From: Acidimicrobiaceae bacterium
GTDB taxonomy: Bacteria > Actinomycetota > Acidimicrobiia > Acidimicrobiales > Aldehydirespiratoraceae
DNA length: 36,319 bases
Direction of reading: 5' to 3'
Assembly: GCA_028819505.1 (NCBI GenBank)
Contig: JAPPLH010000011.1
Location: 1 to 36,319, forward strand
In this document: positions 12,319 to 29,576 of the stretch, one piece after another
Layout: each line of letters starts with the position of its first letter
Numbering within the stretch: position 1 is the first letter of the stretch
The notes under the pieces: model-generated
Database searches by the model: none
What the model saw: the letters and a program-made list of their open reading frames with translations, nothing else
Told to the model about the DNA's origin: nothing
Translations under genes and position numbers: made by a program

Positions 12319-15132
12319 CTACAGGGCGTAGGCGGCGGGGGCGGGCTTGAGGGGGCGGGCGTACCACAGGGGGCGGCGCAAGCCTCCGGGGCCGGGTGCA
12401 GGACGGGTCATGGCCAGCCATTCGCGATAGGCCTCGCGGGCCTTGGCCGTGTCCACCACCACGTCGCCGTAGGTGTCGCCCGGCTGGGCCGGGCCAACCC
12501 GCACGCGCTGGTGCCAGCACTGCATGCCCGAGACCGGATCGGGCTGCACGCAGAACGTGAGGTTCTGATGCACGCCGGTGTCGCTCCACCAGATGCGCTC
12601 GGTGTCGGGATCGTCGCTGGCGTGCCGCTCGGGCCGGCCCCTGCGCCGCAGCCGCCACACCGATCCGGTGCTGGTGATGTCGGCGTCGCCGCCGGCCCAC
12701 GAGCCGCCGGCGTTCGCGTCGAGGCGCCACCGGCCCATGTGATGCGACGCGGCCACCACGCCGGGGCGTATCCCCTCGGTGCGCCAGGCGCCGATCACGA
12801 AGTGGCCTATGCGGGTGGTGACCCGCACCAGTCCGTTGACCTCAATGCCCAGCGCCTCGGCGTCGGACGGGTGGATCCACAGCGGGTGGCGGTGGCTCAA
12901 CTCCGACAGCCACTTGCTGTTGGCCGACCGGGTGTGGATCAGCGTCGGGATGCGGAACGTGGGCAGCAGGATCCGCTCGTCCGCCTCGAGCTCCAACCCC
13001 TCCCAGTGGACGTGCGACGGGATCCAGGTGGGGGTGGCGTACTCGGACCAGCCCCAGTCGGCCAGGGTCTGCGAGTACAGCTCGAGCTTGCGCGACGGGG
13101 TGGGGAACCCCTCCCTGGGCGCGCCGTCCACCTCCACCGCGGGGGAGCCGTCACCCAGGCCCGCCAGCTTGAGGCCGGCCAGCTCCTCGGGCGCGCCCGA
13201 CCACGCGCCCGGCGTCCCGGGGCGGCGGAAGACGCCCGAGGAGTCGATGTCGCAACCCTCCAGCGCAGCCAAGTCCACCTCTCGCTCGTAGGGGACATAC
13301 ATGTCGCCGTCGAGCGCGTAGGCGCCCCGGTCCCGCATGAACTCCAGGGGGGTCTGGCCGGCGGCGGCCGCGTCGTCGGCCAGGCCGGGAACGCCCTCGA
13401 ACATGGTCGAGTAGTACTCGTCCACCGACATCGGCGTTCCGGGGTGCTCGGGGCTCTCGAACCAGCGGCGGATGCCCATCGAGCCGTCGGGGTCGATGCG
13501 CCACGACAGCTCGATCCAGAACTCGTTCTCCTCCCACACCTCGCCCGGGTTGAACTCGTGGGTCCGGGAGGCGTGGCCCACGTCCTCCCCCCGGATCTCG
13601 GCGTAGCGGCGCAGCACCGGCTGGCGGAAGCCGATCCAGCGGCCGGCGTGGGTCTCGAAGCTGGCCACGTCGTGGCGCTCGGCGCCCACCCCCATCGGCA
13701 GCACGTAGTCGGCGAAGACGGCCGTCTCCGACCAGGTCGGCGTGAGAGCCACATGGCACCCCACCTTGCCGGGATCCTTGAGGGCCTCCAGCCAGCTGAA
13801 CCCGTCGGGGTTGGTCCACACCGGGTTGTACACCCGGCTGAAGTACACGTCGAGGCGGCCCCGGCCCTCGTGCAGGAGGTGGGGCAGCAGGATCGACATC
13901 TCGTGGTAGGCCAGCGGGTACTCGCGGGGCCAGTTGAGCTCGTTCCACTGCTCGACCGGCGGAGCCCCCGGCGGGTGGGGCGCCTTGTACTTGTTCCAGC
14001 CGTTGCCGGTGGTGCCGCCCACCGTGCCGACCGAGCCGGTCAGCACGTTGAGGAAGAACAGGCAGCGGGCCGTCTGCCAGCCGCCCAGGTTGCCCGCGCC
14101 CGCGGCCCGCCAGTTGTGGGAGGCGAACTTCGTCGGGTGGGCGCCGATTATCCCTGCGATCTCGATGATCTGGGCCGCGGGCACGCCGCAGACCCGCTCG
14201 GCCTCCTCCGGCGTGTAGGCCGCGTAGTCCTCCAGCAGGGCCGGCCCCACCGACTCGAACTCCATCGGTCGGTCGGGGTGACGCTCGCGCAGGTAGGTCT
14301 CCCAGTTGGTCCAGCGCCGCACGAAGTCCTGCTCCCAGGCGCCGTCGGCCAGCAGCAAGCGGGCGATGGCCAGCAGCAGGAACGGCTCGGTGCCCGGCCA
14401 CGCCGGCAGCCAGAAGTCGGCCTTGGCGCCGGTGTTGGACAGCCGGGGATCGACGCAGATCACCATGGCGCCCCGGCCCTGGGCCTCGATGATGCGCTGG
14501 GCGTGGGGGTTGAAGTAGTGGCCCGCCTCGAGGTGCGACGAGATCAGGAAGATGACCTCGGCGTGGGCGAAGTCCGACGACGGCCGGTCGTGGCCCATCC
14601 AGCTCTGGTAGCCGATGCGGGCGTTGGAGCTGCAGATGTTGGTGTGGCTGTTGTGGCCGTCCACCCCCCAGCACTGCAGCACCCGCTCGGCGTAACCGTC
14701 CTCGCCTGGACGGCCCACGTGGTACATGACCTCGTTGCGGCGGCCCTCGGCGATGGCGGTGCGGATGCGGTCGCCGATGTCGTCGAGGGCCTCGGCCCAG
14801 CTGACCCGCTCCCACCGGCCCCCGCCCCGCTCCCCGGCCCGGCGCAGCGGGTGCAGGATGCGCTCGTGGTCGTCGATCTGGTTGAGGGTCGCCGGTCCCT
14901 TGGCGCAGTTGCGGCCGCGGCTGGCCGGATGCAGCGGGTTGCCCTCGACGCGGTCGATGCGGCCGGTGGCGTGGTTGACATGGCACACGAGCCCGCAGGC
15001 CGCCTCGCAGTTGAAGCACGTGGTTGGCACCAGCGTGTGATGGTGCTCGACCCGCCGGGGCCACGCCTTGGCGTCGAGGGTCACCGCGTCGTGCCAGGTC
15101 TCGTGCGGGGGATAGCTGTGCAGTTCGGCCAC
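12319..15132 (-). CDS. Molybdopterin oxidoreductase, DMSO-reductase family catalytic subunit
   Basis: The 937-residue protein begins, after a short leader, with the N-terminal [4Fe-4S] motif C39-x2-C42-x3-C46-x29-C76 (TTCFNCEAACGLVCHV to GRNCAKG). The molybdopterin core follows. The block HTNICSSNARIG (cysteine about 167) aligns with the Mo-ligand region of Cys-type members such as nitrate, formate and polysulfide enzymes. The C-terminal part holds the MopB-binding barrel (SHRHPLWIHPSDAEALGI). No twin-arginine signal is present, so it is predicted to stay in the cytoplasm, unlike PsrA, TtrA or DmsA. The GTG start has AAGGA nine bases upstream and lies 14 bases after the stop of the ferredoxin/NrfD gene, its evident partner. 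The substrate cannot be deduced; sulfur- or nitrogen-oxyanion chemistry or formate-like oxidation are possibilities. Confidence 0.9.
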   Translation of the reverse strand: MAELHSYPPHETWHDAVTLDAKAWPRRVEHHHTLVPTTCFNCEAACGLVCHVNHATGRIDRVEGNPLHPASRGRNCAKGPATLNQIDDHERILHPLRRAGERGGGRWERVSWAEALDDIGDRIRTAIAEGRRNEVMYHVGRPGEDGYAERVLQCWGVDGHNSHTNICSSNARIGYQSWMGHDRPSSDFAHAEVIFLISSHLEAGHYFNPHAQRIIEAQGRGAMVICVDPRLSNTGAKADFWLPAWPGTEPFLLLAIARLLLADGAWEQDFVRRWTNWETYLRERHPDRPMEFESVGPALLEDYAAYTPEEAERVCGVPAAQIIEIAGIIGAHPTKFASHNWRAAGAGNLGGWQTARCLFFLNVLTGSVGTVGGTTGNGWNKYKAPHPPGAPPVEQWNELNWPREYPLAYHEMSILLPHLLHEGRGRLDVYFSRVYNPVWTNPDGFSWLEALKDPGKVGCHVALTPTWSETAVFADYVLPMGVGAERHDVASFETHAGRWIGFRQPVLRRYAEIRGEDVGHASRTHEFNPGEVWEENEFWIELSWRIDPDGSMGIRRWFESPEHPGTPMSVDEYYSTMFEGVPGLADDAAAAGQTPLEFMRDRGAYALDGDMYVPYEREVDLAALEGCDIDSSGVFRRPGTPGAWSGAPEELAGLKLAGLGDGSPAVEVDGAPREGFPTPSRKLELYSQTLADWGWSEYATPTWIPSHVHWEGLELEADERILLPTFRIPTLIHTRSANSKWLSELSHRHPLWIHPSDAEALGIEVNGLVRVTTRIGHFVIGAWRTEGIRPGVVAASHHMGRWRLDANAGGSWAGGDADITSTGSVWRLRRRGRPERHASDDPDTERIWWSDTGVHQNLTFCVQPDPVSGMQCWHQRVRVGPAQPGDTYGDVVVDTAKAREAYREWLAMTRPAPGPGGLRRPLWYARPLKPAPAAYAL

Positions 15133-15146
15133 GGCGACGGTTCCTT

Positions 15147-16661
15147 CTACGACAGCGGGACGGACTGGCCGGCCCGCACGAAGCTGTCCTCGTAGAACCA
15201 CATGCCCGCCAGCGCGGCCAACCCGGCTAGAGCGGGCAGGGCCGGACCGGTGCCGGCGGCGAGAGCGGCTGCGGTGAGGACGGCGGGCAGGAGCAGGCCC
15301 AGCACGATCCCGCCGGCCCAGAAGCGGCGGGCGTAACGGCCGCGGGTCATGGCCGTCACCGCGGCTTCGACGTGACTGGTGCCCTGAGACGTGACCTCGG
15401 CCCCGATGAGCACCCCGGCAGCCAGGAGACCGCCCAGCATCGTCCAGCGAACGGCGGGCACGGCCGGGATCTCCATGGCGAGGTCGGCAAGCGAGTAGGC
15501 CGCGCCCCCGGCCACCGCAGCCTGGGCCAGCAGCGTCGGCAGCAACAGCGGCGTCTGCCACAGGTCCCGACCCTCGCACTGGCCGAACAGGAAGGCGGTG
15601 TAGCCCGCGGTGGCCGCGGCCAGCAGGACGGCGGGGACGGCCAAGCCGGCAAGAGCACCGGCCGATCCTGTCGCACCGGCCACGAACCAGGCCGCGCAGA
15701 CTGCTGCGAAGGCGCCCAGCACCCATGCGCCCTTGACCAGCCAGGACCGCCGGTTGCCGCGGGTGAGCAGGTAGTAGAAGCGCTCCGGCCGGCGCAGGTC
15801 CCCGACGAGCAGCCCGCCCGTGATCGCAAGAAAGATCCCCGCGACCACCGGCGGCATGACTCCCACCGCGGCCTGCGAGTCACCGTGACCCAGCAGGGCC
15901 AGCAGGCCGGCCACGGCCATAACACCGGCGGCGACCGCCTTGGTGACGAGATAGCTCGAGACCTTGGCCTTCCAGGTCATCTGATGGGCGGTGGTGTAGG
16001 CGGTGCGGGCGACCACGCCGTGGCCGTCGGGCTGGGCGGTCGGATGCTGCGGCGTGGTGTCGGCCCAGATCATGCCGTCGGACGCGATGGCGGTCCGCAG
16101 CGGATCCAGCGATGCCTGGTCGGCGCCCCGGTAGTACACCTTGGGCAGTGTCTGCTGCTCGGGGGCCCGCACCGCGGTGTCGCTGCGGGCGATGATCCTG
16201 GTGGTCTCATCGTTCGGGTCATCGAGGTCGGCCACCTTGATGGCATGGGTGGGGCACACCACCACGCAGCTCGGCTCGAGGCCCTGCTCGATCCGGTGGT
16301 TGCAGAAGTTGCACTTGTTGGCGGTGTTGGTGGCGGGGTTGATGTAGATGGCGTCGTAGGGGCAGGCGTTCATGCATCCCTTGCAGCCGATGCAGTTGCT
16401 GTCGTCGAAGTCGACCACCCCGTTGGCGGCCCGGAACAGCGCGCCGGTGGGGCAGATGGTGATGCACGGCGCGTCGTCGCAGTGGTTGCAGCGCATCACC
16501 GAGAAGTGCCGGTTGACGTTGGGGAACGTGCCGGTCTCAATGTACTTGACCCAGGTGCGGTTCACGCCGAGGGGAACGTCGTGCTCGCTCTTGCACGCGA
16601 CCGTGCAGGCATGACAGCCGATGCAGCTGTCGCTGTCCAGCAGGAACCCGAGCCGGGTCAC
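15147..16661 (-). CDS. Fused four-cluster ferredoxin / NrfD membrane subunit
   Basis: The 504-residue fusion starts with a PsrB/NrfC-like ferredoxin domain (about 1-175). Its four cysteine quartets are at 13/16/19/23, 58/61/66/70, 90/93/96/100 and 117/120/132/136, enough for four [4Fe-4S] clusters. A linker leads to an NrfD/PsrC-like integral membrane domain (about 228-504, roughly eight hydrophobic segments) with the family block LRRPERFYYLLTRGNRRSW and terminal FVRAGQSVPLS. In most complexes these are two separate genes. Electrons would pass between the quinone pool and the Mo subunit encoded next. The GTG start follows GAGG seven bases upstream; the longer upstream frame overlaps the TetR gene and is not credible. 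The domain assignment is firm; the reaction is unknown. Confidence 0.9.
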   Translation of the reverse strand: MTRLGFLLDSDSCIGCHACTVACKSEHDVPLGVNRTWVKYIETGTFPNVNRHFSVMRCNHCDDAPCITICPTGALFRAANGVVDFDDSNCIGCKGCMNACPYDAIYINPATNTANKCNFCNHRIEQGLEPSCVVVCPTHAIKVADLDDPNDETTRIIARSDTAVRAPEQQTLPKVYYRGADQASLDPLRTAIASDGMIWADTTPQHPTAQPDGHGVVARTAYTTAHQMTWKAKVSSYLVTKAVAAGVMAVAGLLALLGHGDSQAAVGVMPPVVAGIFLAITGGLLVGDLRRPERFYYLLTRGNRRSWLVKGAWVLGAFAAVCAAWFVAGATGSAGALAGLAVPAVLLAAATAGYTAFLFGQCEGRDLWQTPLLLPTLLAQAAVAGGAAYSLADLAMEIPAVPAVRWTMLGGLLAAGVLIGAEVTSQGTSHVEAAVTAMTRGRYARRFWAGGIVLGLLLPAVLTAAALAAGTGPALPALAGLAALAGMWFYEDSFVRAGQSVPLS

Positions 16662-16695
16662 ACCACAACCTCGCCGCGGTTGAGTAGGAGCACCA

Positions 16696-17316
16696 CTAGG
16701 CGGCGGCGCCGCGAGCGCCGGTGTTGCGGGACAGCCGCTCGATGCCGGCACACAGCAACTCCACGAGATGCCGGAACGTCTCCTCGGGATCATGGGGCAG
16801 CGGATGGCCGTCGCCCGACTCGAGGTGGCTGAATCCGTGGAAGGCGCTGCGCAGGGTGCGGGCGGCATGGACCCGATCCTCTTCGGTGAGGTCGTAGGAC
16901 CTGAGAGCCTGGCCCACCACGGCCAGCACCTGCTCCACCGCGTCCTCCAGTTCGGGATCGCCGGCGCAGGGACAGCGGTCGGTGGCGGCGTAGATGCCGG
17001 GATGGTCCCGGACCATGGCCCTCCAGGCGTGGCCCACAGCCGCGACCGCGTCGTGGCCGGCCAGCCCGACCGCCGAGTCGGCGAGCCGCTCGGCCAGGAT
17101 CTCCCGGCCCAGGAGGCTCAAGCTGCGGATGAGGTCGTCGTAGCCGCCCACGTGCCGGTAGAGGGCGGGCTGGCGCACGCCGAGGGAGCCGGCCACCCGG
17201 GTCAGCGTCAGTTTGTCCAGCCCCTCCCCGTCGGCGATCCGCGCCGCGGCAGTGATCACGGTGTCGCTGTCCAGCGATCGCCGGGCCGAGCCCGGTTCAG
17301 CGTCGCGCAGAGTCAC
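16696..17316 (-). CDS. TetR-family regulator with WHG-type C-terminal domain
   Basis: The 206-residue protein has an N-terminal TetR helix-turn-helix (about 17-65; LTLTRVAGSLGVRQPALYRHVG). The ligand-binding domain resembles the WHG/TetR_C_33 group, with TLRSAFHGFSHLESGDGHPLP near the end. The GTG start has GGAGG six bases upstream, and a longer in-frame extension shows no family similarity. It precedes the ferredoxin/NrfD and molybdopterin genes on the same strand with a 34-base gap, so it is probably the local regulator of that operon, repressing until a ligand binds. The ligand is unknown. Confidence 0.9.
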   Translation of the reverse strand: MTLRDAEPGSARRSLDSDTVITAAARIADGEGLDKLTLTRVAGSLGVRQPALYRHVGGYDDLIRSLSLLGREILAERLADSAVGLAGHDAVAAVGHAWRAMVRDHPGIYAATDRCPCAGDPELEDAVEQVLAVVGQALRSYDLTEEDRVHAARTLRSAFHGFSHLESGDGHPLPHDPEETFRHLVELLCAGIERLSRNTGARGAAA

Positions 17317-17372
17317 ACAGTGCCTCCCAGATGGTTCCGTCGCCCGGCTCCCGCCGCAACCGGAAGTTAGCA

Positions 17373-17403
17373 GGTATAGCGCAGCGTTAGGTCTGACTGA
17401 CAA
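17373..17403 (-). promoter_or_regulatory. Candidate promoter for the TetR / Mo-oxidoreductase operon
   Basis: Minus-strand TTGTCA (17398-17403) and TATACC (17373-17378) resemble -35 and -10 elements, but the 19-base spacer is long. A repeated CTAAC flanks the -10. The leader to the GTG at 17316 would be about 50 bases. Tentative. Confidence 0.3.
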
Positions 17404-17461
17404 ACCCGATTCGGGCCGCAACGGGACGAGCCGACTTCCGACCATGCGCCGGCCATGCCCA

Positions 17462-18334
17462 TCAACTGACGGACTCGAGGAAACTGGTGTCGATGAATGC
17501 GTCGTAGCTTTCCGGCGCCGGCCCAACCTCGCCGGCGGCCGCGAGAGAGTCGATCTGCTCGCTCAGCACCTGCTGCACCGTGCCGGTCAGCCATCCCCCG
17601 GACAGCTGCGCGTCCCTCTCGGGGAACGTGAAGGCGTCGAGGAGCGCGGCGGTGGCGTCGCGGTCCGTGCCGGCAGCCGCCGCGATGGTGTCGATAAACG
17701 GCTCGCGGCTGAGGTTGTAGGCCCGGTAGGTGTTCTCGTTCACCTGCAGGAACCCGGTGACGGTGTCGGGATACACGGCCGCGAACACGCCCGTGGTGGA
17801 GATCACGCCGAGCACGGGTCCGGCGGCGGCCGCCTGCTCGGCTCCGGCGTTGATCGCGGCCACACCCACCAGCAACAGACCGGCGCCGCTCGCTACGGAG
17901 GCCGCGAACGATGCCAGCCCCTGAGAGTAGGCGATGTCGATGTCGCCGGCCTCCAACGCCCGGCCCATGTCGTCGCCCGACGCGAACGGGATCCAGTTGA
18001 CCATCAGATCGAGGACCTCGTCGTAGGTCGGGGCCGCCTGAGACGCCTGATGCGGCGTCGGCCACTCCGCGAAGTACCCCACGTACAGCTCGTCGAGCAT
18101 CATCTCATCGGCGAGAACCGCAAAGGGCGCGCCTTCCTCGTCCTCTGCGACCATGGCGTCGACGCTCGGCCCGCCGGGCGCCTCCCCGACGGGATCAGCG
18201 ATGGACTCGCTCGGGGACTGCGTCTCGACCGCCTCCGCCGCGCCCGTGTCTGCCGCCGGCCCGATCGGCCCGCCGCCGCTGCAGGCGGCTGCGACGAGGC
18301 CTAGCATCGTGAGCACAGCCAGTGGTCGTCTCAT
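17462..18334 (-). CDS. Taurine-type ABC substrate-binding lipoprotein, internally shortened
   Basis: A lipoprotein signal peptide ends in VAAAC with the lipidated cysteine at residue 18. A Gly/Ser-rich spacer follows, then sequence resembling TauA-type binding proteins: YFAEWPTPHQ (about 88-97), VNWIPFASGDDM and IDIAYSQGLASF. After LLLVGVAAINAG (about 153-164) the sequence jumps to the region normally near the C-terminal third, GVFAAVYPDTVTGFLQVNENTYRAY. From memory of TauA-like proteins about 90 residues, most of the second lobe, are missing, so the 290-residue product may not bind ligand normally. The frame is intact. No ATPase or permease gene is adjacent. It follows the aminotransferase by 34 bases and is probably co-transcribed. 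It may be a decaying gene or a repurposed domain. Confidence 0.75.
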   Translation of the reverse strand: MRRPLAVLTMLGLVAAACSGGGPIGPAADTGAAEAVETQSPSESIADPVGEAPGGPSVDAMVAEDEEGAPFAVLADEMMLDELYVGYFAEWPTPHQASQAAPTYDEVLDLMVNWIPFASGDDMGRALEAGDIDIAYSQGLASFAASVASGAGLLLVGVAAINAGAEQAAAAGPVLGVISTTGVFAAVYPDTVTGFLQVNENTYRAYNLSREPFIDTIAAAAGTDRDATAALLDAFTFPERDAQLSGGWLTGTVQQVLSEQIDSLAAAGEVGPAPESYDAFIDTSFLESVS

Positions 18335-18368: not shown

Positions 18369-19742
18369 TTACCGGGTCGGGGACTCCAACCAACCGCCCA
18401 AACGGTCGAGCACCCGGTCGAGACGACCGAGCAGATCGTCGATCACGGCTTCGTCGGCCACCAGCGGCGGCGACACCGCCAGCATCACAGCGCCCCTGCC
18501 GTCGGGGCGCACCAGCAGGCGTGCCGAGCGGACCAGCCGGTCGAGCACGCCGCCCGGGAGCAGCTCGGCGACCTCCGAATCGTCGAGTTCCACCCCTCTG
18601 GCACGGTCCCGCATCAACTCGACGGAGTAGAAGTAGCCGGTACCCCTCACGTCCTTCACGCAGGCGTGAGACTCCATCAGCGCCCGCAGACCTTCGCCCA
18701 GACGATCCTCGTTGGCCAGGACGCGCCCGAAGACGTCCTCGTCGCGCATGGCGGCCATGTTGGCCACCGCGACCGCGGCGGCCACCGGATGGCCGCCGAA
18801 CGTGGAGCCGTGGACATACATGGCGAGGGGCGAGTCCCACACCCGATCCACGAGCGGGCCGCGCGCCACCAGCCCTCCGAGGGGCTGGTAGGCGCTGGTC
18901 ACCCCTTTGGCGAAGGTGATCATGTCGGGCTCCGCGCCGAAGCGCTCGCTGCCGAACCAATGGCCCAGCCTCCCGAAGGAGTTGATGACCTCGTCGGCGC
19001 AGAGCAGCACGCCGTACGCGTCGCAGATGCGGCGCAGTTCCTGCCAGTAGCCCTCGGGGGGTACCAGCGCCCCCCGACCGTTCTGCACCGGCTCGGCGAC
19101 GACCATGGCGACGGTGTCGGGGCCCGCCGCGACGATCGCCTCCTCGATCGCCTGCACGCAGTCGAGTTCCCGGGCGGGCCGGCCTGCCGGCGCGGTGCAT
19201 TCCAGCGTGTTGGGTACCCGGAGCACGTTGCCGGCGAGCATCGGCAGGAACGGGTCCCGGAGGCTGGGGATGCCCGTCAGTGCCAGGGCGCCCAAGGTCG
19301 TGCCGTGGTAGGCCCACCGGCGGGCCACCACCTTGTGGCGGCGCTCCTCGCCGTTGGCCAAGTGATAGCAGCGGGCGAGCTTCAGGGCCGATTCCACCGC
19401 CTCCGATCCCGAGCTGACGAAGAACACCCGGTCGAGGCCGCCCGGCGCAGCGTCGGCGATCATCGACGCTGCCTGTATCGCCGAAGGGTGCGCCGTCCCC
19501 CAATTCGGGTAGAAGGCGATCCTGTCCATCTGCTTGGAGGCGGCCGCGGTGAGATCGCTGCGCCCGTGACCGAGATTGGTGCAGAACAGGCCGGCAAGGC
19601 CGTCCAGGTACCGGTCTCCGTCCGCGTCCCACACGTAGCAGCCCTCACCGCGGGCGATCACCACCAGGTCATCGCCGCGCCAAGCGTCGCCCCGCGTGAA
19701 ATGCGGCAGCAGATGACGGCGGGCCTGTTCCCTGTCCCCCAC
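18369..19742 (-). CDS. Class III PLP-dependent aminotransferase
   Basis: The 457-residue enzyme has all core marks of the subgroup: YLDGLAGLFCTNLGHG at the N-terminal substrate region, SSGSEAVESALKLAR (phosphate-binding loop, about 110-124), YHGTT (145-149), ADEV with the ring-nitrogen aspartate at 250, and TFAKGVTSAYQPLGG with the Schiff-base lysine at about 279. Such omega-aminotransferases act on terminal amines (polyamines, beta-alanine, taurine and others) with pyruvate or 2-oxoglutarate. The adjacent taurine-type binding protein hints at an aminosulfonate or similar substrate, but that is inference only. The GTG start is preceded by AGGAGG eight bases upstream. Confidence 0.92.
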   Translation of the reverse strand: MGDREQARRHLLPHFTRGDAWRGDDLVVIARGEGCYVWDADGDRYLDGLAGLFCTNLGHGRSDLTAAASKQMDRIAFYPNWGTAHPSAIQAASMIADAAPGGLDRVFFVSSGSEAVESALKLARCYHLANGEERRHKVVARRWAYHGTTLGALALTGIPSLRDPFLPMLAGNVLRVPNTLECTAPAGRPARELDCVQAIEEAIVAAGPDTVAMVVAEPVQNGRGALVPPEGYWQELRRICDAYGVLLCADEVINSFGRLGHWFGSERFGAEPDMITFAKGVTSAYQPLGGLVARGPLVDRVWDSPLAMYVHGSTFGGHPVAAAVAVANMAAMRDEDVFGRVLANEDRLGEGLRALMESHACVKDVRGTGYFYSVELMRDRARGVELDDSEVAELLPGGVLDRLVRSARLLVRPDGRGAVMLAVSPPLVADEAVIDDLLGRLDRVLDRLGGWLESPTR

Positions 19743-19881: not shown

Positions 19882-21105
19882 TCACCGCCCGGCGCCGGCC
19901 CGGTAGATCAGGTCCGGGGTCAGCTCGGCCACGCTCGCCGCGCCGCAAAGGGCCATGTCCCGCCTCATGCCGGTGTGGAGGTGCTCGATGACCCAGTCCA
20001 CACCCTCCTCCCCGGCCGCGGCCAGCCCGTACAGGTAGGGCCGGCCGATCATGCACGACGTGGCTCCGAGGGCCAGCGCCTTGACGATGTCGCCGCCCCG
20101 GCGGACGCCCCCGTCGCAGACGATGTCGAGGTCGCCGCCGACCGCCTCGGCCACCGGTCGGACGAGCTCGACGACGGAAGGGGCCGAGTCGAGCTGGCGG
20201 CCGCCGTGGTTGGACAGCACGACGCCGTCGAGCCCCCGGTCGCGGGCGATCACCGCGTCGGCCACGCTCTGGACGCCCTTGACCAGCACCGGCCCGTCCC
20301 ACAGCGAGCGCATCCACTCCACGTCCTCCCACGACAGCGTGGGATCGAACTGCTCGTTCATGAAGGCGGCCAGGTCGACCGCGGTCGAACCGTCGATGTC
20401 GGTGTTGCCGGCCACATTGGCGAACTCGATCGGCTCGGAGAAGGCGAACCGCAGGCTCCAGCCGGGACGGATCATTCCCTCCACAACGATGTCGAGCCCC
20501 ATCTTGGGGGGCAGGGTGAACCCCCGGCGCACATCGCGCTCGCGCCGGCCCAGCATGGCCGCGTCCACCGTGATGCACAGCACTTCGAAGCCGGCCTCGG
20601 CGGCCCTCAGGATCATGTCCTTGAGCAGGCCCTTGTCGCGCCAGACGTACACCTGGAACCACTTCGAGCCGCTGCTGACCGCGGCCACCTCCTCCACCGA
20701 GCGCGTGCCCATGGTGGACAGCGCATAGGGAAGCCCGGCCCGCTCCGCCGCCCGGGCCACGGCCAACTCGCCGGGCGGATGGGCTACCCGGGTGAAGCCC
20801 GTCGGCGCCAGTATCAGAGGGAAGGGCGCCTCGCGTCCGAGAATGGTGCCGGTGGTGTCCACGTTCCCCATGTCGCGCAGGACACGGGGCACGAACTCGA
20901 GTTCCCGGAAGCCGCGCGTGTTGCGGTCCATCGCCATCTCGTCCTCGGCGCCCCCGTCGATGTAGTCGAACACCCCGCCGGGAAGGCGGCGGCGTGCGAT
21001 CCGGCGCAGATCCTCGATGCTGGCCGCCTTCTGCAGGCGTCGCCGCGTCGCGTCGAGTTCGAACCGCCGGAAGCGCAGGACCGATCTGAGCGTGTCGACA
21101 ATCAT
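19882..21105 (-). CDS. FMN-dependent alpha-hydroxy-acid oxidase/dehydrogenase (LldD family)
   Basis: The 407-residue protein belongs to the glycolate oxidase / L-lactate dehydrogenase / mandelate dehydrogenase family. Key elements are GGVFDYIDGGAEDE (active-site tyrosine about 48), LILAPTGFTRVAHP, QVYVWRDKGL, a lysine near 276 (VLVKGVQS) and the catalytic histidine at about 300 in SNHGGRQLD. It closes with VCDGGVRRGGDIVKALALGA, the phosphate-binding loop of FMN. It oxidises an (S)-2-hydroxy acid to the 2-oxo acid; which one cannot be told. The length is slightly above average because of a basic N-terminus. Its ATG overlaps the stop of the preceding coiled-coil gene by ATGA, so the two are translationally coupled. 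Confidence 0.92.
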   Translation of the reverse strand: MIVDTLRSVLRFRRFELDATRRRLQKAASIEDLRRIARRRLPGGVFDYIDGGAEDEMAMDRNTRGFRELEFVPRVLRDMGNVDTTGTILGREAPFPLILAPTGFTRVAHPPGELAVARAAERAGLPYALSTMGTRSVEEVAAVSSGSKWFQVYVWRDKGLLKDMILRAAEAGFEVLCITVDAAMLGRRERDVRRGFTLPPKMGLDIVVEGMIRPGWSLRFAFSEPIEFANVAGNTDIDGSTAVDLAAFMNEQFDPTLSWEDVEWMRSLWDGPVLVKGVQSVADAVIARDRGLDGVVLSNHGGRQLDSAPSVVELVRPVAEAVGGDLDIVCDGGVRRGGDIVKALALGATSCMIGRPYLYGLAAAGEEGVDWVIEHLHTGMRRDMALCGAASVAELTPDLIYRAGAGR

Positions 21106-24914: not shown

Positions 24915-27448
24915 CGCGCGTCTGGCTCTGCTTCTGAGTGCTCGGAAGGATCCCGGTTGGAGTTGCCGTTGATGTCGTCGCCGACGAGGGCGACAGCCAC
25001 CACCTCGTCGCCGGGGTCGGGATTCATCACCTTGACACCCGACGCCATCCGGCTCCGCTCGGACACGTCGCCCACCGGAACCCGGATCACCACGCCGTTG
25101 GCAGTCACGGCCAGAATCTCGTCGCCAGGATCCACGACGAGCGTCCCGACCACTTCGCCCTTCTCCTCCGTCGGCTTGGACCCGATGTTCCCCTGGCCGC
25201 CCCGGCCCTTGCAGTTGAACGCGGCCACCGGTGTCCGCTTGCCGTAGCCGCGAGTGGTCACGTACAGCAGCGCCGCGCCCGGACGGGCCACCGCGCACGA
25301 CACGACCGAATCGCCGGCGTGCTTGAACTTCAACCCGACGACCCCGCCGGCGATCCGGCCCATCTCACGAACCTCGTCCTGCGCGAAGCGGATCGTCTGG
25401 CCCAGGCGCGACGACAGCAGCACGTCGTGCATCCCGTCGGTCGGCACGACCGCGACCAGCTCGTCGTCGCGCAGGCGGATGGCGATGAGGCCCGCCTTGC
25501 GGGACGAGTCGTAAGCCGTGAACTTCGTGCGCTTCACCCGGCCCTTGGCCGTGGCGAACAGCAGGTACCGGTTCGTCTCGTAGTCGCGCGTGTCGATCAC
25601 AGCCTGGATCCGCTCGCCGTCCTGCAACGACAGCAGGTTCACGATCGAGGTGCCCCGTGCGGTGCGCGAGGCCACCGGCACCTCGTGGGCCTTCAGCCGG
25701 TAGACCCGGCCCCGGTTGCTGAAGAACAGCAGGTATGAGTGGGCCGTGGTGTGGATCAGGTGCATGACGCTGTCGGCCTGCTTGAGCTTCGCGCCGGCCA
25801 CGCCGCGGCCGCCGCGGCCCTGCAGGCGGAACTCGTCGGTGGGAACCGTCTTGACGTAGCCCGACGACGACATGGTGAACACCAGGTCGTCGTCGTCGAT
25901 CAGGTCCTCGATGTCGAGCTCGCCCGGGTCGATCTCGAGCACCGACCGGCGAGCGGTCCCGAACTTGGCGGAGATCTCCTCGAGCTCGTCGCGGATCGCC
26001 ATCCGGAGGCGATGCTCGTCGGCCAGCAGCGCCTCCAGACCCGCGATCAGGGCGCGCTTCTCGGCTGCCTCCGCCTCGAGCTGGGTTCGGCCCAGGCGGG
26101 TCAGGCGGGAGAGGGCCATATCGAGGATGTGGTTGGCCTGCTCCTCGGAGAACCCGTAGGGCTCGGCCATCAGCGACGCCCGGGCCGCTGCGGTGTTCTC
26201 GCTGGCGCGGATGGTGGCGATGATCGCGTCGATGGCGTCGAGGGCTCGCAGCAGCCCCTCCACGATGTGGAGGCGGGACCGGGCCGCGTCCAGGCGGAAC
26301 TGCGACCGCCGGGTCACCACCTCGATCTGGTGCGCGACGTATGCGACCAGCGCGTCGCGCAGGCTGAGCGTCCGGGGCACCCCGTCCACCAGCGCCACCA
26401 CGTTCATGGCGAAGCTGGACTGCAGCGGGGTGTGCTTCCAGAGGTTGTTCAGCACCACCTCCGGGTTGGCATCCCGCTTGAGCTTGATCACGAAGCGGGT
26501 GTCGTCGCCGGAGGACTCGTCGTTGACGTCGGCGATCCCCTCCAACTCCCTGGCGTTGACCAGGTCCGCGATCTTGCGGGCGACGGCGCCGGCCGACACC
26601 TGGTAGGGCAGCGCCGTGACCACCAGCGCATTCCGGCCCGCGGTCTCGGCGAGCGTCACGTCGGCTCGCATCTTCACCGAGCCGCGCCCGGTCCGGTAGG
26701 CCGACTCGAGCCCGTTGCGGCCCAGGATCCTCCCCCCGGTCGGGAAGTCCGGGCCGTGCACCCGCGCCATCAGGTCCTCGACGCCGGCGTCGGGGTCCTC
26801 CAGGAGCAGCACCACCGCGTCGACCACCTCGGCGAGGTTGTGAGGCGGGATGTTGGTGGCCATGCCCACCGCGATCCCCTGGCTGCCGTTCACCAGCAGG
26901 TTCGGCAGGCGGGCCGGAAGGACGGCCGGCTCGGCGAAGTCCCCCGAGTAGTTGTCGACGAAGTCGACGGTGTCCTCTCCGATGTCGGCGAGCATCGACA
27001 TGGCCAGCGCATCGAGGCGGCACTCGGTGTAGCGGGCCGCGGCCGGGGGATCCTCGGGCGAGCCGTAGTTGCCGTGGAAGTCGATGAGGGGGTGCTGCAG
27101 CGAGAACGGCTGGGCCATCCTGGCCAGCGCGTCGTAGATGGCTGCGTCGCCGTGGGGGTGGAAGCGGGCCATCACGTCGCCCACCACCCGGGCGCACTTG
27201 ACATGTCCCCGGTCGGGACGGAAGCCCTGGTCGTACATCGACCACAGGATCCGGCGGTGCACCGGCTTGAGGCCGTCGCGGGCGTCCGGCAGCGCCCGGC
27301 TGATGATCACCGACATGGCGTAGTCCAGGAATGAGCTCTCCATCTCCTCCTGGATCTCGACGACGGTCACCCCCGGGCTGTCGCCGGTCGCGATGCCCGC
27401 GGGGTCCGGGGAGTCAGTTGCGCCGCTTCCGCCTGTCATGTCGTTCAT
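24911..27448 (-). CDS. gyrA: DNA gyrase subunit A
   Basis: The 845-residue protein is full length. Visible are the winged-helix start ([30 protein letters not shown]), the quinolone-determining region [10 protein letters not shown] (98-106), catalytic tyrosine 140 in ARYTECRL, and a C-terminal beta-pinwheel with a GyrA-box-like QGRGGRG. It negatively supercoils DNA together with GyrB. The residue equivalent to E. coli Ser83 is alanine (A102), as in mycobacteria (Ala90), which in that group goes with lower fluoroquinolone affinity; Asp87 is kept (D106). The ATG has GGAAG five bases upstream inside a duplicated leader. The 3' end overlaps the TadE-like gene. Confidence 0.98.
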
Positions 27449-27513
27449 GGGTGCTTCCGTTGGGGGGATCAGTTGGGTGGCTCCGTTGGGGTGCTTCCGT
27501 TGGGGGGGATCAG
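27449..27513. repeat. 40-bp imperfect duplication in the gyrB-gyrA spacer
   Basis: A 24-25 base element (ggtgcttccgtt, then a run of G and atcag) occurs at 27449-27472 and 27489-27513, offset by 40 bases. A shorter decayed piece, ggtggctccgtt, lies between them. The copies differ in one G of the homopolymer. Read on the minus strand, each carries TGATCCCCCC and the GGAAG ribosome-binding site; the right copy includes the gyrB stop and the left copy serves gyrA. Confidence 0.85.
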
Positions 27514-29576
27514 AAGTCGAGGTTTCGGACTTCTCGGGCGTTGGTGACGATGAAGTTCTTGCGCTGCTCCACGTCGTCGCCCATGAGCACTGAGATGACC
27601 TGATCGGCGATCGCGGCCTCCTCGACAGACACCTGCAGGAGGCTGCGCGTACGCGGGTCCATGGTGGTGGAGCGCAACTCGTCCCAGTCCATCTCTCCCA
27701 GTCCCTTCAGCCGCTGGAACTCGCGCTTGTGCTTGGGGCGCTCGGCCAGGAAGGCGTCCTTGGCGGCGTCGTCGAGCAGGTAGACCGTCTTCGAGTTCGA
27801 CACCTTGGTGGAGTACAGCGGCGGCTGGGCCACGTACACGTAGCCCGCTTCGACCAGAGGGCGCATCTGGCGGTAGAAGAACGTGAGCAGGAGCGTGCGG
27901 ATGTGGCTGCCGTCCACGTCGGCGTCCGCCAGCACTATCACCTTGTGGTACCGGGCCTTGGCGACGTCGCAGGCGTGGTCGTCGGGATCGCGGCCGCCGG
28001 ACGCGCCGCCGTCGCCATTGCCGTCGACAGCGCCGCTGGGTCCCGCCGCTACGCCGATGCCGGTCCCTATGGCCGCGATGATGGCCTGTATCTCGTTGTT
28101 CTTGAGCATCCTGTCGATGCGGGCCCGCTCGACGTTGAGGATCTTTCCCCTGATCGGCAGAACCGCCTGGGTCTCGGGATCGCGTGCCCGCACGGCAGAA
28201 CCGCCCGCGGAGTCCCCCTCGACGATGAACAGCTCCCTGCGGTACGAGTCGGTGGCGGTGCAGTCCTTCAGCTTGTCGGGCATGCCGGCGCCGTCCAGCA
28301 GCGACTTGGAGCGAACCTCGGAACGGACCCGGGCGGCGGCCTCGCGGGCCGCGGAGGCCGCCACAGCCTTCGACAGCGCCCGTCTCGCTTCGACCGGGTG
28401 CTCCTCGAGCCATTCCGACAAGCGGCGGTTGGTGACCCGCTCGGTGAAGGACCGCATCGACATGTTGCCCAGTTTGGCCTTCGTCTGCCCCTCGAACTGC
28501 GGCTTGCCGATGCGCACGCTGACGATCGCGGTGAGGCCCTCACGGATGTCCTCGCCGTGGAGGTTCTCAGCCTTCTCCTTCAGCAGCCCCTTCTCGCGGG
28601 CGTAGGCATTGACGGTCCGGGTCAGCGCCGAGCGGAACCCCTGCTCGTGCATGCCGCCGTCGATGGTCGATATCCCGTTGGCGAAGCTGTGCAGGCCGTC
28701 GGTGTTGAATCCGGTGTTCCACTGGAACGCCACTTCCACCTCGTGCGGGTTGCCGTCGATGGTCTCGGCGTCGGAGAAGTGCCCGACGGCATCGAAGAGG
28801 CGCACCTTCGACTGGTTCAGGCGGCTCACATAGTCGACGATGCCGCCCTCGTAGCGGAACGAGGCCCACTCGGAGTGTCCGTGCGGGCCTGGCCTCAGGT
28901 CGCGGACCCGGATCTCCAGCCCCCGGTTCAGGAACGCCATCATCTCGAGGCGCTCAGCCACCGTCTGGTACCGGAACGACACATCCTCCAACACCGAGGG
29001 GTCCGGCCAGAAGCGGATCGTCGTGCCCGTCCTGATGCCGCCGTTCAGCTCCGGCGCGGGCCCCAGCACGGACAGCGCCTCCGCGATCTCGCCACCGTCG
29101 ACGAAGGTCATGCGATGCCGTTGCCCGGAGCGGTAGATGTCGACCTCCACCCTCGCGGAGAGGGCATTGACGACCGAGACGCCGACGCCGTGGAGACCGC
29201 CCGAGATCTTGTATCCGTCGCCCCCGAACTTCCCTCCCGCGTGCAGCAGCGTCATCACCAGCTCGGCCGCGGGAACGTGGTCGTGGAGGGGATGCGGCTC
29301 GGTGGGGATGCCGCGGCCGTCGTCGCCCACCTCGCATGAACCGTCCTCGTGGAGCGTCACGTCGATCCGGGTGCAGTATCCCGCCATGGCCTCGTCCACC
29401 GAGTTGTCCACAACCTCCCACACGAGATGGTGCAGGCCGGTCGGGCCGGTCGACCCGATGTACATGCTGGGCCGTTCGCGCACCGCCTCGAGGCCCTCCA
29501 GGACGGTGATCTCGAGCGCGCCGTACGAGGGGTCGGCGCCGGGGGCTGTCTCGGTTGCCGGCTCGCTTGCAGTCAC
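27510..29576 (-). CDS. gyrB: DNA gyrase subunit B
   Basis: The 688-residue subunit has the GHKL ATPase domain (NSVDEA 58-63, DDGRGIP 85-91, GLHGVG 127-132), transducer, and TOPRIM (EGDSAGG 453-459, DADVDG 551-556), closing with a normal tail domain. Between IGTGIG and the helix before DADVDG lies a Gly/Ala/Asp-rich insert of about 29 residues (508-537), where family members usually have only a few. The reading frame is intact and the motifs are complete, so the gene should be functional. The GTG start has GGAGGG ten bases upstream. It is followed by gyrA after a duplicated 61-base spacer. Confidence 0.97.
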   Translation of the reverse strand: MTASEPATETAPGADPSYGALEITVLEGLEAVRERPSMYIGSTGPTGLHHLVWEVVDNSVDEAMAGYCTRIDVTLHEDGSCEVGDDGRGIPTEPHPLHDHVPAAELVMTLLHAGGKFGGDGYKISGGLHGVGVSVVNALSARVEVDIYRSGQRHRMTFVDGGEIAEALSVLGPAPELNGGIRTGTTIRFWPDPSVLEDVSFRYQTVAERLEMMAFLNRGLEIRVRDLRPGPHGHSEWASFRYEGGIVDYVSRLNQSKVRLFDAVGHFSDAETIDGNPHEVEVAFQWNTGFNTDGLHSFANGISTIDGGMHEQGFRSALTRTVNAYAREKGLLKEKAENLHGEDIREGLTAIVSVRIGKPQFEGQTKAKLGNMSMRSFTERVTNRRLSEWLEEHPVEARRALSKAVAASAAREAAARVRSEVRSKSLLDGAGMPDKLKDCTATDSYRRELFIVEGDSAGGSAVRARDPETQAVLPIRGKILNVERARIDRMLKNNEIQAIIAAIGTGIGVAAGPSGAVDGNGDGGASGGRDPDDHACDVAKARYHKVIVLADADVDGSHIRTLLLTFFYRQMRPLVEAGYVYVAQPPLYSTKVSNSKTVYLLDDAAKDAFLAERPKHKREFQRLKGLGEMDWDELRSTTMDPRTRSLLQVSVEEAAIADQVISVLMGDDVEQRKNFIVTNAREVRNLDF

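Follow-up and report, generated by a model that had tools for sequence, protein, structure and literature searches.

The window analysed here, a stretch of 36,319 nucleotides from an Acidimicrobiaceae bacterium, encodes on its reverse strand a 290-residue TauA-type lipoprotein from which a large internal segment has been lost in frame, and a short form with the same junction is present in a second species of the genus. On balance, we think it probable that the product is a long-established one-lobed derivative of TauA, no longer engaged in transport and maintained as a lipoprotein by weak selection. The ancestor was a binding lipoprotein of the TauA type, most of whose domain II was removed by a 288-base in-frame deletion, and the locus of the short gene has lost its ATPase and permease genes. 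The short protein is probably still exported and lipid-anchored via a long linker, and its lobe I probably folds alone. Closure on a ligand in the manner of TauA is not expected of it, and taurine binding would have been lost; with neither such closure nor a cognate importer at the locus, the protein would no longer act as a transport receptor. It would most likely have been kept for a non-transport job of the remaining lobe, for example low-affinity ligand binding or protein binding at the membrane.

The gene and the parts of its product are located as follows.

17462..18334, reverse strand: one-lobed TauA-type lipoprotein gene, 290 aa (open reading frame, TIGR01729 match, alignment with relatives, segment length)
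18281..18334, reverse strand: signal peptide and lipobox, residues 1-18, with Cys18 (by eye from sequence and alignment)
18095..18280, reverse strand: long linker, residues 19-80 (alignment with relatives)
17852..18088, reverse strand: lobe I (TauA domain I), first part, residues 83-161 (NCBIfam, alignments with relatives and with TauA)
17851..17852, reverse strand: deletion junction between residues 161 and 162, with 96 codons of lobe II absent (alignment, segment lengths)
17465..17851, reverse strand: what is left of lobe II (residues 162 to about 172), followed by the second part of lobe I up to residue 290 (NCBIfam, alignments)

The sequence-only reading had described both ends of the protein as TauA-like, and this was borne out by the alignment with relatives and by a match to the NCBIfam TauA model TIGR01729 (E 2.8e-10), the best stretch of which pairs protein residues 167-285 with profile positions 174-298 of 300. 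The score of 40.1 bits is below the curated cut-off of 304.25 bits, as is that of a full-length relative from genome G001 (129.8 bits), which gives a single unbroken match to profile positions 12-298. For the SsuA model of NCBIfam, the best stretch pairs residues 109-166 with profile positions 29-85 of 290. A Pfam scan of the 290-residue protein gave no match, a Protein Data Bank search returned weak matches only (SsuA 2x26, E 0.075; TauA 6ssy, E 0.1), and two AlphaFold models built from nine-sequence alignments had mean pLDDT values of 36 and 32, too low to be of use. The sequence-only reading had named a compact known family of this length, or coverage of both lobes, as observations that would speak against it; no such family was found in Pfam or NCBIfam, and lobe II is not covered in the TauA alignment. 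The signal peptide and lipobox, assigned by eye, are intact as had been claimed, and this export signal is common to the relatives: a similar lipobox motif is seen by eye in the second short form and in nearly all full-length relatives shown. The linker is similarly long in the second short form and shorter in the closely related full-length copies that were aligned.

Alignment with the relatives revealed one large gap, between VGVAAI (ending at residue 161) and NAGAEQ (starting at residue 162). The segment from the EL(N/Y)V motif to the C-terminus spans 209 aa in both the window's own genome (G000) and the congener with the second short form (G002). Among the 30 copies of full-length type, 28 have 305 aa over this segment, the two exceptions being G036 (300 aa) and the first copy of G426 (trimmed to the first 305 residues of a 625-aa tandem piece); the gap is therefore 96 residues (288 bases) long and in frame. 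The in-frame loss had thus been recognised correctly from the sequence, with its size put slightly too low at about 90 residues; the start assigned to it at VGVAA also stands, and the end assigned to it at the VYPDTV region does not, since residues 162-187 (from NAGAEQ) are present. A direct repeat at the deletion ends was sought by eye, with nothing convincing found.

A profile of the full-length relatives matched TauA (6ssy) end to end using HMMER (E 1.7e-23). With domain I of TauA comprising residues 23-104 and 202-319 and domain II residues 105-201, as given in the accessible part of PMC6906117, the alignment places the deletion at approximately TauA residues 102-189, i.e. most of domain II. 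Judged from sequence only, the window protein with its 96 missing residues would not form the two-domain architecture around a ligand cleft. The positions of TauA Glu106 and Thr132 lie inside the deleted part of both short forms in this alignment, and the Asp205 position is Gly in both, so that the taurine-binding set Gln30/Glu106/Thr132/Asp205 is broken in the window protein at 106, 132 and 205. In TauA, mutation of Glu106 abolishes taurine binding and Asp205Ala weakens it from 1.6 nM to 22.9 µM, according to the same accessible text (PMC6906117). Against reading the Gly as a sign of lost binding stands the observation, also in that text, that the working receptor SsuA has Gly at the Asp205 position (PMC6906117). 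At TauA positions 30, 106, 132 and 205, the HMMER alignment shows Phe, Asp, Val and Asp in the full-length relatives; because of the residues at the first three of these, taurine can only be presumed to be their ligand, and that their own taurine binding is unproven counts against the preferred reading.

Matches to the window protein were found in 31 of 149 related genomes (the window's own included), and in 28 of 395, 18 of 51 and 56 of 397 genomes of class, family and order samples, respectively, these four samples overlapping and having different cut-offs. A gap-free single alignment through the protein was obtained for G000 and G002 only; most other relatives gave a two-piece match with the lobe-II segment in between, a few weak matches covered the signal peptide and linker region only, and neither contig-end matches nor those listed as a single piece are assignable to the short or the full-length form. 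No further short form was recognised in the overlapping samples of 149, 395, 51 and 397 genomes. Five of the relatives are Acidimicrobiaceae or Acidimicrobiia metagenome bins. Checking relatives for the same short form, as the sequence-only reading had proposed, thus located it at the syntenic place in the congener G002. It is scarcely credible that an assembly or read error cut the middle out of a normal gene: G000 and G002 are draft assemblies (completeness 94 and 85%), but the identical in-frame junction occurs in two genomes, within diverged sequence and together with 14 common residues absent elsewhere.

These 14 residues, one of which is the Gly at the Asp205 position, are absent from all 30 full-length copies compared. 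The two short forms are 53% identical end to end, and six neighbouring proteins are 76-95% identical between G000 and G002, with a seventh, small protein at 70% over 97 residues. In the gene tree the short forms make up a clade on long branches with a support of 100, possibly inflated by long-branch attraction; G004 (run of N), G007 and G014 (both incomplete) had been dropped before the trees were built, and G009 was without a piece having the needed start. Divergence at four-fold sites, of which each pair offers 64-72, is 0.37-0.45 between the window gene and its counterparts in the close congeners G013 and G015 (0.45 being the second G013 copy); the aminotransferase gene gives 0.19-0.20 for these pairs. 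When G011 and G001, which are more distant, are compared, the two genes show no such difference, at 0.35-0.44 and 0.40-0.44. These figures are consistent with a window gene that predates the divergence of the close congeners. A recent in-frame deletion, one of the two explanations first offered, is contradicted by this synonymous divergence and by the junction common to G000 and G002, and two independent deletions are disfavoured by the identical length, the 14 common residues and the clade support. That a half-protein is kept in a second species argues for an old remodelled protein, possibly still of use, and not a fresh accident. A tree of three neighbouring proteins groups G000 with G013, G008, G010, G006 and G015 and places G002 apart, with G003 (support 79). 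Because G000 and G002 are not sisters there, reconciling this tree with the gene tree calls either for transfer or for a locus that was lost and gained repeatedly, and the history of the locus is mosaic.

The short gene lies at a site that in other members of the genus can hold an import cassette. Its neighbours in the window are as follows.

18369..19742, reverse strand: class III aminotransferase, upstream gene of the cassette, with taurine as its presumed substrate (Pfam PF00202, context)
16696..17526, reverse strand: TetR-type regulator open reading frame of the cassette, real start probably about 17313 by eye (PF13305; PF00440 below cut-off)
15147..16664, reverse strand: 4Fe-4S and NrfD-type anchor protein, bordering the cassette site on the right (Pfam, context)
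12319..15132, reverse strand: molybdopterin oxidoreductase adjoining the anchor gene (Pfam/NCBIfam, context)
19882..21105, reverse strand: FMN-dependent 2-hydroxyacid (lactate-type) dehydrogenase, bordering the cassette site on the left (Pfam; 16 of 16 genus genomes)

Between the dehydrogenase and FeS-anchor genes, the site in congeners can contain an aminotransferase, a TauA-type protein, a TauB-type ATPase, a TauC-type permease, a phosphate acetyltransferase (Pta) and a TetR regulator, in some genomes spread across contig ends. The order in G000 is dehydrogenase, aminotransferase, short gene, TetR regulator and FeS protein, and in G002 dehydrogenase, short gene and FeS protein; ATPase, permease and Pta queries found no match in the G000 window or the G002 stretch. 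Close orthologues of the ATPase and permease are present in 9 of the 16 genus genomes (ATPase identity at least 79%), and none were found elsewhere in the G000 or G002 draft genomes. The site is empty in G003, G005, G008 and G012, and in G006 the contig ends within the aminotransferase. The cassette would serve taurine breakdown. Xsc would use the product of a taurine aminotransferase, and it scores over its cut-off in 11 of the 16 genus genomes, including G000, with G002 having a 250-position fragment at a contig end. The aminotransferase scores 573.8 with its best model, just short of the cut-off of 574, and its 25 listed models include no taurine-specific one.

Several features of the neighbourhood were noted in passing. 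The TauB-type ATPase (L046:6043-7413 and its orthologues) is 457 residues long, with approximately 200 residues that have no Pfam assignment ahead of the ABC domain (214-353); at the more distant loci L041, L048, L049 and L055 the ATPase has 266-271 residues by our gene calls. The fused FeS-NrfD anchor gene (part of window region 12319-16664) borders the cassette site in 13 of the 16 genus genomes, the contigs of the other three ending earlier, and is kept where the cassette is absent, together with the molybdopterin oxidoreductase wherever the contig extends that far. All NCBIfam matches of these two genes are below cut-off; as a guess, they might encode a sulfite-oxidising complex.

In the main rival reading, the import cassette is being lost at this locus and the short gene is what remains of it, decaying slowly and of little or no use to the window's species; its frame would still be open because stops accumulate slowly in GC-rich genes. 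We take this to be a substantial possibility, though not the one we favour. Loss at the locus is directly visible, with the ATPase and permease in nine genomes, four empty sites and partial cassettes in G000 and G002, and the 53% identity of the short forms against 70-95% for their neighbours points the same way; this much higher rate of evolution in the short forms than in the neighbouring proteins likewise counts against the preferred reading. We compared decay with retention using an MG94-type branch model, fitted to 12 of 32 sequences over 209 codons from one starting point with up to 80 iterations, in which the synonymous branch lengths are large. Under F3x4, omega was 0.072 for the background, 0.36 for G000, 0.22 for G002 and 0.28 for the stem (F1x4: 0.12, 0.57, 0.31 and 0.47, respectively). 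Setting omega to 1 on all three short-form branches cost 31.7 lnL units (F1x4: 17.3), a result that rejects neutrality for the short forms taken together. On single branches the cost was 10.9 (F1x4: 10.4) for G002, 1.2 (0.9) for G000 and 1.7 (1.2) for the stem, with neutrality not rejected for the latter two; the G002 branch is clearly constrained, and the window's own branch is not distinguishable from neutral drift. Forcing the background omega cost 8.9 lnL units for G000 and 5.9 for G002 (F1x4: 11.8 and 7.0). Selection in the short-form pair is thus relaxed but present, and is detected singly on the G002 branch only. A first codon model (12 of 32 sequences, one starting point, 60 iterations) rejected neutrality by 51.9 lnL units, with omega 0.157 for the short forms versus 0.047; we relied on the more cautious later fit and not on these stronger figures.

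Comparison of the short forms with each other showed that third positions differ at 80 of 209 sites versus 109 of 418 for first and second positions (p 0.002), an excess found in the segment from residue 91 onward and lacking in the first 60 aligned residues, and that, where residues differ, they resemble each other somewhat more than after shuffling (mean BLOSUM62 -0.12 vs -0.51, s.d. 0.20). Under simulated neutral change, the probability of encountering no stop was approximately 0.2 for G000 and 0.08-0.10 for G002; the stop-free state of the short genes is weak evidence, which also counts against the preferred reading. Decay draws on the G000 branch and on this probability of about 0.2, but it is opposed by the rejection of neutrality jointly and for G002, by the third-position excess in the C-terminal part, by the absence of any indel across the 209 codons aligned between the short forms (the linker before them differs in length, in frame), and by the signal peptide and lipobox that both retain, as seen by eye. 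The second explanation first offered, a one-lobed derivative with a new role, is supported as to the single lobe by sequence mapping onto TauA, and the new role is suggested by the selection detected jointly and on the G002 branch.

Compared with TauA of E. coli (PDB 6ssy, TIGR01729), the window protein aligns over both parts of lobe I, and the genes of its full-length relatives adjoin those of an ATPase and a permease that in NCBIfam match TauB and TauC best, both below cut-offs. In contrast, the window protein appears from alignment to lack most of domain II and with it the Glu106 and Thr132 positions, has Gly at the Asp205 position, and carries a lipobox and long linker, and the short-form locus has no TauB- or TauC-type gene. 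Natural one-lobed proteins of this general kind are already known: RmSBP of Rhodothermus marinus, a natural single-domain substrate-binding protein akin to two-domain binding proteins, has a solved structure and a function that is not known, according to the accessible part of PMC10805632, and what is new here is the TauA-type variant. In RmSBP the similarity is to the C-terminal domain of Trp- and Phe-binding proteins, whereas the window protein would retain a discontinuous TauA-type lobe, and RmSBP-type genes are reported to be often near a chemotaxis receptor gene, whereas the short gene lies in a decayed cassette with two-lobed relatives in congeners (PMC10805632, accessible part). No chemotaxis receptor domain was found in the seven neighbouring window proteins scanned with Pfam. 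A literature search, open-access and mostly covering titles and abstract openings, found no description of a one-lobed TauA.

In the type II binding proteins HisJ, LAO and ArgBP, one isolated lobe can bind ligand weakly, as reported in the accessible part of PMC10601554, which makes a functioning lone lobe plausible. These isolated lobes and those of ribose-binding protein are likewise lone lobes but were made for study, whereas that of the window protein appears from its sequence to have arisen in evolution and is common to two species. A lone lobe might also pair with itself, with another binding protein or with a permease, and so act as a two-lobed receptor or regulate another importer. The isolated lobes of ribose-binding protein can come back together as a functional heterodimer (PMC10601554, accessible part), one permuted half gives a segment-swapped dimer (PMC9815098), and contig 37 of G000 (26257-28761) encodes a separate NMT1_2-type (PF13379) protein adjoining an ATPase and permease that are distant kin of the lost taurine-type importer. 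We nevertheless consider pairing improbable, as the isolated lobes of HisJ, a type II protein, do not interact (PMC10601554, accessible part), no second G000 protein matches the binding domain of the short protein (the sole other match has E 0.03 over residues 3-67), and the only neighbours common to both short forms are the dehydrogenase and the FeS protein.

A bolder version of the preferred reading, which we think rather unlikely, is that a two-lobed receptor became a one-lobed lipoprotein, freed from its pump and with a set of newly acquired residues, its ligand Asp being lost among these changes, and was selected in two lineages for a new membrane-surface task, so that binding-protein history would have been reversed by one step. 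Most work on lone lobes has used constructs, and binding proteins themselves are thought to descend from single-lobed ancestors. Here a natural example would be available in a genus that also offers two-lobed relatives, empty sites and partial cassettes, so that the folding, binding and usefulness of a lone discontinuous lobe could be tested directly; sister species that carry a two-lobed relative at this locus would provide the controls. As a relic, the gene would still record the dismantling of an import cassette.

Other rearrangements of TauA-type genes were observed among the relatives. Two head-to-tail copies in one stop-free frame of 674-875 codons are present in at least 14 genomes (G011, G013, G015, G016, G041, G105, G322, G426, G479, G552, G563, G576, G616 and G695), with tandem loci including L033:4885-6936, L034, L035, L036, L039:8511-10553 and L042:8802-10862, and the two copies are almost identical to each other in G015, G016, G041, G105 and G322. 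In G018, a second TauA-type gene (L040:9015-9884) adjoins the full-length one and is without the first part of lobe I, not lobe II, its TIGR01729 match covering profile positions 71-298 only.
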